This document shows positions 8,846 to 13,692 of a stretch of DNA of 39,052 nt, piece by piece. Location of the stretch: contig JAACCR010000026.1 of assembly GCA_009937205.1 (NCBI GenBank), positions 1 through 39,052 of the forward strand. Reading direction: 5' to 3'. Below the pieces are notes generated by a model that saw nothing but the letters and a program-made list of their open reading frames with translations, ran no database searches and had not been told where the DNA came from. The stretch is from Methanobacteriota archaeon. Lineage in GTDB: Archaea; Thermoplasmatota; Poseidoniia; Poseidoniales; Poseidoniaceae. Both the position numbers and the translations under genes were made by a program. The first letter of the stretch is position 1. Each line of letters opens with the position of its first letter.

Positions 8846-9310
8846 TTATTTTTTACCCTTCACCGGCCACTGGCGAAACCCTCTACTCGATTCACGATCT
8901 GAAAAAATTTGTATTCTAATGCTATTGCCATCGATCAATATTACATCCTCTGCAGTAAGCCCGGGACATTCCTCAACAACTCGATTCCACGACCTTTCAG
9001 TTGCAAGGTTTTCACCCCACCAAGGAAATGCTGCACATTGTTGAGGTCTTACTTTGTAGATAGTGCATTGCTTGTTTTCATCTAAATTAATACATATCTC
9101 ATCTTCAGCTCTACTTTGTAAAATATATCGCCCGTCAATTGTTTGTTTGCAATCTCTTTCCAACCAGCTCTCAACATCCATTCCATGGTGTTCAGAGATT
9201 CTCAGTGCGTCTTTTTCTGATAGATAGACAATTCCACCCGGCTCATCACAGCACCTGCCGCAATTTGATTGACATTTGAACGGAACCCCGTCCATCCACC
9301 ACGGTTTCAT
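8846..9310 (-). CDS. YkgJ-type cysteine-cluster protein (UPF0153-like)
   Basis: A small protein of 154 residues whose cysteines follow the CxxxCxxCC...CxIYxxRPxxCxxFPWW plan of the YkgJ/UPF0153 family: CQSNCGRCC (Cys13, 17, 20, 21), CTIYKVRPQQC (Cys82, Cys92), and further single cysteines. The family is thought to bind zinc or an Fe-S cluster; its biochemical role is not established. ATG 9310 overlaps the stop of the DnaA-like gene by four bases (ATGA), so the two are translationally coupled and this is the last gene of that operon. A hairpin with a T run follows. Confidence 0.85.
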   Translation of the reverse strand: MKPWWMDGVPFKCQSNCGRCCDEPGGIVYLSEKDALRISEHHGMDVESWLERDCKQTIDGRYILQSRAEDEICINLDENKQCTIYKVRPQQCAAFPWWGENLATERSWNRVVEECPGLTAEDVILIDGNSIRIQIFSDRESSRGFRQWPVKGKK

Positions 9311-11490
9311 TCCTCTTCACCTGAATTTTGGCCTGCAATATGTAGTGCTAATTCCGGAGGTTTATCGATATGATTTTCATTGGTGCTTTTGGGAGTTTTT
9401 ATTACTCGAACAATTTTTTCCTTAACAGGTTGTTTAATTTCCTTAGAATCTAGTGCACTATCGTCTAACAAATCAGCCATGTCAATATCTTCTGCCTGAA
9501 TATTCCATTCCCCTTCAGGTTCAAAACTATCCAATGATTGTTCGTAACTTTCAGTATTCTTTACAACTTTTTTTGGGGTGCGGCGAGTAACCTTTCTTTT
9601 TGATTTCCCCTTTCTCCTCTTAGCGACTCGCCGAGGTTTAGCGTCTTCTTCAAACGGTGGAAGTTCCTCTCTAGTTGGATCGATTGCAACTAATTTTTCT
9701 TCAAGATAACGTAATTCATCAGCGATGGCAATTAATTCTTCAATATCTGCACTACCCGCTTTTTGTGCTAATTCTAGCATCTTATCCTCGAGGTCACTAA
9801 GGAGTATTGAATTATTAAACACCTCTAATTCTGCATCTCTTATTCTAGAATCGATCTTATCATCTAATTCGGTTAAAATATCCGCCGCCCGGCCATAATC
9901 TCGTTCTTCAATACGATTAGGTCGTGCAATTAAATGCTGCTCATTTTCGTTTACACTCAACACGGAAGGTGCTTCGGGTGTTAAATCCTCAAGTGTTGTA
10001 TGGACAAACTTTTCAACCATTTCCCCACCATCCAATGACATATCATTTGCATCCCATTGCGGTGGCTGGTAATCATCCTTTTCCGGTTCAGGAATATTAC
10101 GAACTAAGTCAATTCCGCCAATATCATGGACAGAATAGACTGTGTCGACTGCATCAGTAATCAATCGAGTTGCGATATCATCTACATTGTGGCGAACGAT
10201 TTCATCTTGAATTTCAGATTGCTGCATTATTTCATCCCGTAATGTTCGAATTACATCTTCTCCATCGAGTATGTCGTCTCCGGATTCAATCGCAAGAGCA
10301 ATCTTGTCACAATTAGCAATAGTACTTCTCCAACCGATTTGGTTGAAGGTGACAATGCTGGTCATCTGCCCATCATCTAGCATTAGGTTCCTTGAACCAG
10401 CTAATCTTCTTGTAAACATTACCAGGCTTGTAGCAGTTGGAATTTGCATATGAGTCTGAGCAGAATTACGGCAGATATCCCAAAGACGGGAAGAAGGCCA
10501 TTCATCTGGAGATTCTACGCTTGTGAGAATCACATGTACTCCTAAGTTTATTGCGTGGTCGATCATTATTCCAATGTGATTGGCCAAAGTGATATCATCT
10601 GCAATAATATGAGCATCGTCAATCGCCAAGAGACTTGCCCCAACTAGTGCTTCTTGCCAATCGTTAGGGAGCATCTCCATCCCAATCAAATCAACAGCAC
10701 TGATGAGAAATACCAACCCCTCCATTCTTCTGGCTATACCTTGCGCAGTTGCGTGAATTAGATGTGAGCGACCAGTTCCGCTTTCACCAATAATAAGTAG
10801 CGGATTAAGGCTAGTTCCAGGAGAGTCCACAATTGATTCACAAGCTCTACTGGCGTGAGAGTTTTCGGAGCATACAAACCATTGTTTGAATGTACGTTGT
10901 GTATCGATTCGTAGTGGTTTAGGCCAAGCTGCTTTAACTTGCAATGAGCGGCTATGGTGATAAATTGAATCTTCTTTAACCGCTGCTAATTCATCAGGAA
11001 GTGCATTGGTGACTCTCCCTCTCTGTCCATCTAGGACGCTTAGCCAAATTGGTCTTGCATCACTTTCTATTCCTACATATTGATCTTCTGAATCCATCTC
11101 TAATGCTAATTCCTCAGACTTCAATAGGCTAATTTCTCTTAATGATTTAATTCTCCTTGCAGCAATACTAGCAAAGTCATGACCGTCATTTTGCAAATTT
11201 ATCACCGGTTTGTGACCTCTACTTTCAGTGCCTAAATTTGAATCAGCAATCAAATCAAAGGTTGGCCTTTGGGCTACACCGGTTCGTTGCAAAATACTGC
11301 TATGTCGTGTATCGGCGACTGTAGATTTTCCAAGCAACCTATTCATTCTTGATAACGGCAATGTTGGTTTTTCTTCTTTTACAGATGTTTCCTGTGGGAA
11401 CTGTAGGTTGTCGACACCATTTTGAATTAATTGATTCTTGGCCTTCTGTATTGCAAGGTCAAGTCGTTCTTTCCTGCCAATCATACTCAC
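9307..11490 (-). CDS. DnaA-like AAA+ ATPase with long disordered/coiled-coil flanks
   Basis: Residues 199-400 read like the ATPase core of DnaA/Hda: TFKQWFVCSENSHASRA (the YTFDNFVVG-x-SN-x-LA entry motif), NPLLIIGESGTGRSHLIHA (Walker A 235-242), LLAIDDAH (Walker B, Asp291/292), VILTSVE (sensor 1) and a candidate arginine-finger segment SSRLWDICRNS near 335. The Walker A Lys is Arg241, which usually weakens nucleotide binding. There is no DnaA domain IV helix-turn-helix. Instead about 195 residues precede the core, and after it come an acidic linker, a coiled coil (about 530-605), a very basic stretch (619-642) suited to nucleic-acid binding, and an acidic tail. The GTG start overlaps the upstream stop (GTGA) and follows GGAGG. 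Archaea normally initiate replication with Orc1/Cdc6, so the role here is open. Fold assignment is firm, function is not. Confidence 0.75.
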   Translation of the reverse strand: MSMIGRKERLDLAIQKAKNQLIQNGVDNLQFPQETSVKEEKPTLPLSRMNRLLGKSTVADTRHSSILQRTGVAQRPTFDLIADSNLGTESRGHKPVINLQNDGHDFASIAARRIKSLREISLLKSEELALEMDSEDQYVGIESDARPIWLSVLDGQRGRVTNALPDELAAVKEDSIYHHSRSLQVKAAWPKPLRIDTQRTFKQWFVCSENSHASRACESIVDSPGTSLNPLLIIGESGTGRSHLIHATAQGIARRMEGLVFLISAVDLIGMEMLPNDWQEALVGASLLAIDDAHIIADDITLANHIGIMIDHAINLGVHVILTSVESPDEWPSSRLWDICRNSAQTHMQIPTATSLVMFTRRLAGSRNLMLDDGQMTSIVTFNQIGWRSTIANCDKIALAIESGDDILDGEDVIRTLRDEIMQQSEIQDEIVRHNVDDIATRLITDAVDTVYSVHDIGGIDLVRNIPEPEKDDYQPPQWDANDMSLDGGEMVEKFVHTTLEDLTPEAPSVLSVNENEQHLIARPNRIEERDYGRAADILTELDDKIDSRIRDAELEVFNNSILLSDLEDKMLELAQKAGSADIEELIAIADELRYLEEKLVAIDPTREELPPFEEDAKPRRVAKRRKGKSKRKVTRRTPKKVVKNTESYEQSLDSFEPEGEWNIQAEDIDMADLLDDSALDSKEIKQPVKEKIVRVIKTPKSTNENHIDKPPELALHIAGQNSGEEE

Positions 11491-12200
11491 TGTCCTCCGT
11501 AGCGTTCAATGGCATTCCCTTCTTTGTCATATAGGGTGCTACTGTCAAGTATTCTTTTTGAACCTAATTCTTTCCATTCTTCTACAACTACATCAATCGT
11601 TTTTGATGATTGAGAACGACTTGCAGATTCTCTCATATCCTCATCATTTTGCCTTATCGGATTATTTGAATCTAGGGCCATAGATGGAGTGAGTTTTGTT
11701 TCAGTACCAATAGGTCTGATGTCGTCTACTACGTCCAATACATTAGGCCCTCCGCTAGTTGGCGGTAGAGTTGCGATATGTTTGGCAGCCAATTGAACAG
11801 ATGCCTGTTGAAGTTCTAAATCCTGCTTAGGAGATATGGGTTTGAATGTGTCATCAAGTGCTTTTCTTTGGATGATATCTCGCTCCTTTATTGACCTGAA
11901 AAGATGTTTTTCAGGTTGCGCAGTAATTGTGAGTTCTGGAAGGTCTGGAGAATCTTTAGCAACTTGAATTGCAGCATTTGCTTGCATTGTGTGCTTTCTA
12001 GTGGCAATCGGTGGGAGATTGACACTCTTCTTTGTCCTCTTTACAATAGTGGCTTTTCTCGGGCCAGTTGTTTTAGGTGGAATTGGTTTTTGAATTGGAA
12101 GTTGCTCAATTACTGGGTTTGAGACAGAATCTAAATTCTCTTCTTCAAGAGTATGTTGCGCAGCGATCGGTTGTACTCCTTTGGCGACAGACTTCTCCAT
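11487..12200 (-). CDS. disordered basic/acidic protein of unknown function, operon partner of the DnaA-like ATPase
   Basis: Not recognised. The 237 residues lack hydrophobic core patterns and are rich in Gln, Pro, Thr, Lys and Asp. The first 90 residues are basic (for example RKATIVKRTKKS); the middle (about 95-165) has heptad-like segments such as LELQQASVQLAAKHIATL; the end is acidic. It resembles a linker or scaffold more than an enzyme. Its stop overlaps the start of the DnaA-like gene by four bases, and it follows the DUF835 gene by 78 bases. Its ATG lies inside a perfect hairpin (separate entry). Similar composition in the flanks of the neighbouring ATPase suggests the two proteins work together, which is inference. 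Confidence 0.7.
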   Translation of the reverse strand: MEKSVAKGVQPIAAQHTLEEENLDSVSNPVIEQLPIQKPIPPKTTGPRKATIVKRTKKSVNLPPIATRKHTMQANAAIQVAKDSPDLPELTITAQPEKHLFRSIKERDIIQRKALDDTFKPISPKQDLELQQASVQLAAKHIATLPPTSGGPNVLDVVDDIRPIGTETKLTPSMALDSNNPIRQNDEDMRESASRSQSSKTIDVVVEEWKELGSKRILDSSTLYDKEGNAIERYGGQ

Positions 12201-12278: not shown

Positions 12279-13535
12279 TTAGTTTTCCATCATTGATTCA
12301 ATTTCCGAATCACCAGCCCACTCTTGCATCATTGCAGATAGGTTTCCTGTAGCATCGCTAATCTCTTGAGGGTCTAATGATTCTTCACCGCCTGATATTC
12401 CATGCATAGAATCAGCTGCACTTACCGGTGATTGTAAATTATCCGCTAATACTTTTTTCAATTGAGATTCTATCCATAGGACTTCATCTTGGTCGGGAGT
12501 CATACAAATTGGATGGTCGAGTAACAGATCATCTTCTAGCAACCAGTGGTCTAGGGTTTCTGGTTTTACCACATCTAACTCACGAGTCAATAATTGCCGT
12601 TTGGATAAGTTGAAGGCAGTTAAGTCGGCAGTGGAAAGGAATAAGTGGTCTTCTAATTTCACTCCATCACAAATATCTCTAACCATTCCAATCATTCGCT
12701 CATCACCATGGATGCTGGCGAGATATTCTAATCCTTCAAAAGCAACTACTGCTCTCTTATTAGCCCACAAAAAAGCGTCAATTTTCATTCTAATTGTCTC
12801 TAGGGACGGATCGAGTGAGTTATCAGTTTCTGCATTGCTTAGCCATGAACACGATTCAATCGGCAAATCATATTTGACATTCAATTCTTCTACTTCGTAA
12901 CGAGAAATAACAAGAACTGGTCTACCATGTGTTGCTAAATCACTCGTTAATTGGAATAATTTTGCTGGGTCTTCACTATCATAAATGAGTGCTTGGCCTG
13001 GACTCAACATCTCTGCAATGCCGCCATGCCGTTCAAGCATCGCCTTGCTTTTTTGACGGATGAATTCAGGTGTCTCAACTGAAGGTTCTAATTCTGGCAG
13101 CCTTTCTTCACGCTTCCATGTGGATTTTAGAATACGTGATTTTGTCCACCACTCACCTTCCCCCTCTCTGTGATTAGAAATATTCTCGGCCTCAAGATCA
13201 AGATATGCTGCAGGGAATAATTTAGCGATAACATCAACATCCTCTATTTCTTGTACGTGAAGTGAAATTGTGGCATCAAGTGCCGAACAATCACTTTCAA
13301 TTTCAAGTAATGCCTCTAAACCGGTAAGTAGGTTATCTGCTTCATGCAGGGCTAAGATTGGTTTCCCTTCTCTTAGAACGATTTGGCTGATTCTAGGCAT
13401 TATCCCCTTGGGTCGGCGTTCAATTCGGATGTGTCCTGAACGACCAAGTCTAGCCATGTCATTAGTCAAACGAGCCAATATGTCAGCACCGCCGCGGCGA
13501 GATTCAACAACTTCTCCCTGCGCTAATTCAACCAT
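12279..13535 (-). CDS. DUF835-domain protein
   Basis: Residues from GQALIYDSEDPAKLFQL to LTRELDVV (about 178-323 from this start) match the plan of DUF835: an opening strand, the VISR motif, a SWLSNAE stretch (family WLT-x-x), an AVVAFEGLEYLASIHG block (family VVLLDGLEYL) and a closing LSTADLTAFNLSKRQLL. DUF835 is an archaeal domain with a degenerate RecA/KaiC-like look, found in signalling proteins; no activity is established. An N-terminal domain of about 120 residues (GRSGHIRIERR, LREGKPILALHEADN) looks like a small alpha-beta sensory module but was not identified. ATG 13535 is chosen because GGGGTG lies seven bases upstream; an in-frame ATG at 13622 would add 29 residues. It is the first gene of the operon with the disordered protein, the DnaA-like ATPase and YkgJ. 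Confidence 0.75.
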   Translation of the reverse strand: MVELAQGEVVESRRGGADILARLTNDMARLGRSGHIRIERRPKGIMPRISQIVLREGKPILALHEADNLLTGLEALLEIESDCSALDATISLHVQEIEDVDVIAKLFPAAYLDLEAENISNHREGEGEWWTKSRILKSTWKREERLPELEPSVETPEFIRQKSKAMLERHGGIAEMLSPGQALIYDSEDPAKLFQLTSDLATHGRPVLVISRYEVEELNVKYDLPIESCSWLSNAETDNSLDPSLETIRMKIDAFLWANKRAVVAFEGLEYLASIHGDERMIGMVRDICDGVKLEDHLFLSTADLTAFNLSKRQLLTRELDVVKPETLDHWLLEDDLLLDHPICMTPDQDEVLWIESQLKKVLADNLQSPVSAADSMHGISGGEESLDPQEISDATGNLSAMMQEWAGDSEIESMMEN

Positions 13536-13542
13536 TTTAACA

Positions 13543-13557
13543 CACCCCGTAGGGGTG
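13543..13557 (-). promoter_or_regulatory. hairpin that contains the Shine-Dalgarno site of the DUF835 gene
   Basis: CACCCC-TAC-GGGGTG is a six-base-pair GC-rich perfect stem. Its 3' arm GGGGTG is the ribosome-binding site of ATG 13535, seven bases on. If transcribed, the stem would hide the site. A three-base loop is tight but possible. Confidence 0.4.
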
Positions 13558-13692
13558 AACTCGCACTTACCGTTATTGAAGGGTGCGGATAAAATAGATG
13601 CTACAACGAAGTTCTTCGCCATCGTTGGTAATAGCCATCAATGATTTAGCAGCGATATATTTTGACTCATAACCTTCAAATGGAATTAGATA

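Follow-up and report, generated by a model that had tools for sequence, protein, structure and literature searches.

The 39,052-nucleotide stretch of archaeal DNA analysed here, referred to as the window, encodes a protein whose AAA+ ATPase core is, as judged by sequence comparison, of the DnaA type. Our main reading, to which we assign a probability of roughly 0.6, is that this gene provides the AAA+ component of a regulatory module made up of two proteins in the Thermoplasmatota, the form with Arg241 in its Walker A motif acting as a static adaptor and not as an initiator of replication. The features of the gene are:

9307..11490, minus strand: gene for the DnaA-like AAA+ protein (727 aa, GTG start; Bac_DnaA match)
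10231..10905, minus strand: AAA+ core of the DnaA type with its lid, covering residues about 196-420 (Pfam and NCBIfam matches, model pLDDT about 90, PDB folds)
10765..10788, minus strand: Walker A motif GESGTGRS at residues 235-242; Arg241 is encoded by CGC (alignment of homologs)
10615..10635, minus strand: Walker B stretch, residues 286-292 (alignment of 87 homologs)
10486..10488, minus strand: Arg335 of SSRLW, aligned to the box VII Arg of DnaA (arginine-finger position); Arg in 69 of 87
10327..10329, minus strand: Arg388 of GWRST, which aligns to sensor II in the lid of DnaA; conserved as Arg in 65 of the 87 homologs
9682..9903, minus strand: C-terminal coiled coil, residues about 530-603 (helices 530-580 and 583-603, pLDDT 80-89)
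9550..9636, minus strand: Lys/Arg-rich disordered stretch, residues about 619-647 (pLDDT <50; not conserved in the family)

Residues 196-330 match the Pfam family Bac_DnaA (PF00308) with an E value of 4.7e-11 (43.6 bits, cut-off 23), and the same family is matched by all 33 aligned relatives (E 0.001); the other AAA families of Pfam give weak matches only. Among the NCBIfam models DnaA ranks first (55.7 bits) and Hda second (37.5 bits), both scores lying far under the respective equivalog cut-offs (343.9 bits for TIGR00362 and 194.8 bits for TIGR03420). The Orc1/Cdc6 models produced no match to the window protein, either in Pfam or in NCBIfam up to an E value of 1. A structure model computed by AlphaFold2 with 33 family members is confident across residues 190-420 (pLDDT about 90), with long disordered stretches elsewhere. 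A Foldseek comparison of this model with the PDB returned domain III of Bacillus subtilis DnaA first (TM 0.83 on the target); the top matches were 8bv3, 8btg and 2z4r (DnaA) and 3bos (Hda), with TM values of 0.75-0.83 on single-domain targets, and domain III of Thermotoga DnaA also stood ahead of Hda. A prior reading of the sequence alone had recognized the motif order of DnaA and Hda in this core, and TFKQWFVCSENSHASRA, NPLLIIGESGTGRSHL, LLAIDDAH and VILTSVE are all located where it had placed them. Its assignment of the protein to the kin of DnaA, and not to Orc1/Cdc6, IstB or DnaC, is likewise borne out by the Pfam, NCBIfam and PDB-fold matches, with Bac_DnaA at the top of the profile search and no match to Orc1/Cdc6.

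Several further features of the DnaA ATPase are retained. Asp is found at residue 291 in 82 and at residue 292 in 84 of the 87 homologs, and the alignment indicates that Walker B Asp291 and Asp292, box VII Arg335 and lid Arg388 are all present in the window protein. The insert between strand 2 and Walker B is about six residues shorter than that of DnaA in the alignment, which brings it near the length in Hda, and the AlphaFold2 model shows only short helices in place of a full-length initiator-specific helical insert.

The role of initiator is ascribed to DnaA in bacteria and to Orc1/Cdc6 in archaea, both being initiator-clade AAA+ ATPases. The suspicion that a DnaA-like protein is out of place in an archaeon proved justified, as the source metagenome-assembled genome (MAG; 1.77 Mb, 82% completeness) contains two real Orc1/Cdc6 genes above the curated cut-off (416 and 207 bits). 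Replacement of Orc1/Cdc6 by the DnaA-like protein is ruled out, since both coexist in this genome. Pfam and NCBIfam scans of the window protein and its relatives detected no family corresponding to DnaA domain I or to domain IV, the helix-turn-helix that recognizes DnaA boxes, in agreement with the earlier observation that domain IV is missing. Because domains I and IV are absent and two ordinary Orc1/Cdc6 genes are present, the domain content indicates that this protein is not the replication initiator. The sequence-only reading had further suggested that a coiled coil and a Lys/Arg-rich stretch take the place of domain IV. Both exist, and the coiled coil is modelled with high confidence, but the Lys/Arg-rich stretch is no general substitute because a whole subclade and several other genera are devoid of it.

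The Walker A motif departs from the GxxGxGK[ST] consensus, and the replacement of its Lys by Arg is confirmed (GESGTGRS, codon CGC). Nearly all close relatives keep this Arg, which rules out a local sequencing error at codon 241. Arg is also the commonest residue at this position among 87 distinct homologs from Poseidoniales (Marine Group II), where it occurs in 39; Lys is found in 32, Cys in 14, and Gly and Ile in one each. Arg241 prevails in the window's subclade, and Lys is found in a nested clade of the window's genus; genus g16 and one member of g15 have Arg, and genus g13 has mostly Cys241 within a heavily altered P-loop (for example, SEVHAGCS). The preceding residue, Gly240, is invariant (87/87). 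The aligned archaeal members from outside the Poseidoniales have Lys, and Arg241 looks derived because Lys occupies the position both in these and in the 32 Poseidoniales relatives. At least four changes between Lys and not-Lys are needed on a tree lacking the P-loop columns, a quick tree with some long branches. In the sequences checked, codon 241 is CGC or CGT for Arg and AAA or AAG for Lys, and a change between the two residues therefore takes more than one base. Comparison of the window gene with close relatives yielded a dN of about 0.03-0.07 and a dS of about 0.28-0.65 (dN/dS about 0.1). These values and the tree indicate that Lys was lost several times at position 241 while the gene stayed under purifying selection.

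The alignment shows an Arg at the equivalent position of E. coli Hda (P-loop REGAGRS), a protein that works with the clamp in its ADP-bound form (PMC5742627); Arg at this position therefore need not abolish nucleotide binding. The sequence-only reading had envisaged a regulator or scaffold with weak nucleotide binding. Regulation or scaffolding is indeed more probable than initiation, but the example of E. coli Hda means that Arg alone need not signify weak binding.

The window protein is encoded next to a probable partner that the sequence-only reading had passed over and that is fused to the DnaA domain in other lineages. The surrounding features are:

12279..13622, minus strand: partner gene, 447 aa, with a DUF2226-like N-domain and DUF835 (Pfam, hhalign; RecA/KaiC/FlaH-like fold)
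13182..13532, minus strand: partner N-domain, weakly DUF2226-like and homologous to the N-domain of DnaA-DUF835 fusions (hhalign)
12576..12965, minus strand: DUF835 domain, inactivated-KaiC-like (51 bits, cut-off 33.1)
11487..12200, minus strand: second ORF, 237 aa, continuing the disordered tail of the partner, with a stop codon that overlaps the GTG start of the DnaA-like gene
8846..9310, minus strand: gene for a CxxCxxCC-domain protein; its ATG and the stop codon of the DnaA-like gene overlap

The DUF835 partner lies upstream of the DnaA-like gene and overlaps it. In 58 of 63 loci the DUF835 gene is adjacent and on the same strand, and the remaining five comprise three that are cut by contig ends and two in which the genes overlap on stop-to-stop ORFs. 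DUF835 is known from archaeal two-component systems as an output domain resembling an inactivated KaiC (PMC5847659), and the corresponding part of the partner folds like FlaH, RecA and KaiC, with FlaH the best solved fold (E 2e-4). An in-frame TAA at 12279-12281 (minus strand) ends the partner in the window and divides it into ORFs of 447 and 237 aa; L003, a relative with 96-97% identity, carries a sense codon at this place. The region is one continuous ORF in relatives and the window frame stays open past the TAA, which is either a real variant or an assembly error.

At the other end of the gene, a C-terminal GEEE is found in 61 of 87 homologs, and its coding DNA, GGTGAAGAGGAATGA (window 9307-9321, minus strand), overlaps the ATG of the next gene. 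The tail is kept where the CxxCxxCC gene follows on the same strand and is mostly absent where that gene is reversed. GGTGAAGAGGAATGA looks like the ribosome-binding region of the overlapping gene, a simpler reading than that of a peptide signal, which was set aside.

The wide occurrence expected of a genuine family is observed. The DnaA-like gene was found in 60 of 60 genomes searched from the genus, the window's included (in a few as fragments only), and in essentially every genome of the window's family. The class was represented by 195 genomes, of which 111 match the DnaA-like profile and 107 match DUF835. Outside the family designated f1, genera carry both genes or neither, with single exceptions in G198 and G075. 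Among the genomes listed for a second family, f2, genera g5, g7, g9 and g12 have both and g2, g3, g4, g6 and g8 have neither, and most f2 genera are without the DnaA-like gene. Genus g16 keeps the DnaA-like gene with DUF835 undetected by Pfam and a weak relative of the partner adjacent. Archaellin genes are present in nearly all of f1 and in part of f2, a distribution that fits published statements on the archaellum of Ca. Poseidoniaceae and Thalassarchaeaceae in Marine Group II (PMC6461757); we therefore take f1 to be Poseidoniaceae and f2 to be Thalassarchaeaceae. Most of these genomes also encode a second, separate DUF835 protein (for example, L219 8307-9413 and L218 13780-14721, both minus strand), the gene for which lies between histidine-degradation genes and a gene for a Zn-ribbon/EF-hand membrane protein, an arrangement conserved in the seven loci fetched.

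The view that the protein is specific to one lineage did not survive a search of Thermoplasmatota and named control archaea, as roughly a dozen further families of the phylum encode DnaA-type proteins. These are reached by the profile of the Poseidoniales proteins, and PF00308 at an E value of 1e-8 matches them mostly strongly (80-239 bits, a few near 40) at a threshold where the control archaea no longer match. Their architectures are:

L077, L079, L081, L084, L088, L092, L093, L097: single chain with N-domain, helical repeat, Zn ribbon, Bac_DnaA and DUF835 (the repeat or the ribbon goes undetected in some of them, and L082 is shorter)
L075, L076, L078, L094, L098: seven or eight copies of a 78-residue helical repeat, then Bac_DnaA, and a double Zn ribbon, 1200-1400 aa
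L086, L089, L090, L091, L095, L096: short forms of DnaA-type proteins

The single-chain fusions score 77-203 bits for Bac_DnaA and 76-93 bits for DUF835, with the order DUF2226-like N-domain, helical repeats, DnaA AAA+ and DUF835, and their Walker A is intact. Their N-domain, which resembles DUF2226 weakly (in 4 of 12 members, best E 8e-4), aligns with that of the window's partner at an hhalign probability of 98.6% (E 5e-16), and the 78-residue helical repeat is common to the fusions and to the second, stand-alone DUF835 protein of Poseidoniales, which has one copy. The two genes of the window can thus be read through these fusions as through a Rosetta stone; together with the co-occurrence of the two genes, the fusions suggest that the DnaA-like and DUF835 proteins bind each other physically. 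A separate DUF835 gene adjoins the DnaA-type gene in L080. In L087 (4853-6454, minus strand) the DnaA AAA+ domain follows an apparent signal peptide, an FN3-like domain and a membrane segment, and its gene neighbours encode KaiC and a 7TM-DUF835 protein. No consistent pathway was seen in the gene neighbourhoods of the other lineages.

Bacterial contamination is ruled out for the window family because the gene is found in a one-contig genome (G056) and synteny is conserved. One contig of a Marine Group II MAG encodes a complete DnaA of the bacterial kind, including domains I and IV (L112; G162:C23, 3096-4472, minus strand); the contig is probably a contaminant, and the match was set aside. L094 has an AAA+ domain that shares 60-68% identity with the DnaA of Bacillota (Firmicutes), Omnitrophota and other bacteria. 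The 5-Mb bin that contains L094 has 7% contamination, but the N-domain and repeats of the protein match the archaeal type, and the DnaA-DUF835 fusions are located in cleaner bins (such as G348, G408, G372 and G398). A tree was built with bacterial DnaA sequences selected for their resemblance to one of the archaeal domains. It places one set of archaeal domains within bacterial DnaA (enclosing branch 98/85) and the rest outside, and it does not reject monophyly of the archaeal domains (p-AU 0.16). The domains from Poseidoniales are monophyletic (100/100), with a long branch joining them to the other archaeal clades. With moderate confidence, we infer that a bacterial DnaA ATPase domain was transferred into Thermoplasmatota and then spread and diverged within the phylum. 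An origin from phage was discarded, the DnaA-like matches in the phage set resembling ordinary bacterial-type DnaA.

The loss of the DNA-binding part, the KaiC-like partner and the replaced Walker A residue in many marine species together make a regulatory switch or scaffold, and not an initiator, the probable role. In the mechanism that we propose, a bacterial DnaA core acquired by lateral transfer became part of a signalling ATPase, the P-loop of which then eroded in marine lineages. Where Walker A is intact, the binding of ATP would drive either DnaA-like self-assembly or engagement of the DUF2226/DUF835 sensor part, and the nucleotide state would gate a signalling or scaffolding complex joined through helical repeats and coiled coils. 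In the window lineage, the Walker A Lys would have changed to Arg and the helical insert shortened to about the length in Hda; given these two changes, the Arg241 subunit probably holds nucleotide (likely ADP) or none and hydrolyses little. It is then probably a static adaptor for the DUF835 partner, Hda-like or nucleotide-locked. The broader proposal of an undescribed archaeal signalling machine, composed of a captured DnaA ATPase, an inactivated-KaiC-like domain and a DUF2226-like sensor, with the marine version a nucleotide-locked scaffold, is more tentative, and we put it at slightly under even odds.

Alternatively, the AAA+ domain could touch Orc1/Cdc6, MCM or the sliding clamp and restrain or help initiation, as Hda does for DnaA. 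The Walker A Arg, short insert and missing domain IV are Hda-like traits, Hda is the second fold group in Foldseek, and Orc1/Cdc6 is present as a possible target. We nevertheless consider such a replication regulator unlikely: the loci examined show no linkage to replication initiation genes, the gene is missing from most f2 genera, the DUF835 partners suggest signalling, and a grouping of the Poseidoniales domains with E. coli Hda, itself on a very long branch, is disfavoured (p-AU 0.038). A little less likely again is a regulator or scaffold for the archaellum or surface adhesion, which would account for the FlaH-like fold of the partner and the archaellum genes in most of the same genomes, including archaellin genes in nearly all of the window's family. 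The phyletic patterns of archaellin and the DnaA-like gene agree only partially, more loosely than with DUF835: archaellin was not detected in G068 (g7), which has the DnaA-like and DUF835 genes, the DnaA-like gene was not detected in g4 and g11, which have archaellin, and neither DUF835 locus sits within an archaellum operon. Degradation of Walker A in many lineages, as far as SEVHAGCS in g13, might indicate a decaying pseudo-ATPase with no present function, which we regard as highly improbable in view of the strong purifying selection over the whole protein, the invariant Gly240 and almost invariant Walker B, and the retention of the gene throughout the family. An IstB/DnaC-type helper ATPase or mobile-element protein, suggested by weak IstB matches in 8 of 33 members, is ruled out as the primary reading by the far better Bac_DnaA scores and has next to no probability, the gene having a fixed chromosomal context adjoining citrate synthase in the loci examined, with no transposase seen beside it.

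DnaA ATPase domains extend across many families of one archaeal phylum, without a DNA-binding domain and repeatedly partnered with a KaiC-like protein, an occurrence that would imply that the motor has crossed between domains of life and taken on another job. If the broader proposal of a signalling machine is correct, the motor of a replication initiator can be reused as a general nucleotide switch. The occurrence of Lys, Arg, Cys, Gly and Ile at one Walker A position within one order offers a natural series bearing on the P-loop Arg of the Hda type. Automatic 'DnaA' names may exist for some members and would mislead studies of replication.

The window protein has in common with DnaA domain III the box I/II entry, the fold, Walker B, the position of the box VII Arg and the lid. 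In contrast, DnaA has domain I, the helix-turn-helix of domain IV, the Walker A Lys and a longer insert between strand 2 and Walker B, whereas the window protein has N-terminal disorder, a C-terminal coiled coil and an archaeal host with Orc1/Cdc6. Orc1/Cdc6 proteins differ in having models of their own, without a match in the window protein, and separate genes in the genome. Hda, the DnaA-derived regulator of E. coli, resembles the window protein in the absence of domains I and IV, the Walker A Arg and a similarly short insert; unlike Hda, the window family is linked or fused to DUF835 and DUF2226, has no DnaA target in archaea and is separate in the tree. No description of a DnaA-DUF835 module was found in the open literature, most subscription journals and bioRxiv preprints lying outside the search. 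The DUF835 domain is common to the window's operon partner and the fusions, and its published architectures are REC-DUF835 and REC-PAS-PAS-DUF835, with DnaA unmentioned there (PMC5847659). What appears to be new is therefore the host group, the architecture and the partner of a known DnaA-type AAA+ domain.
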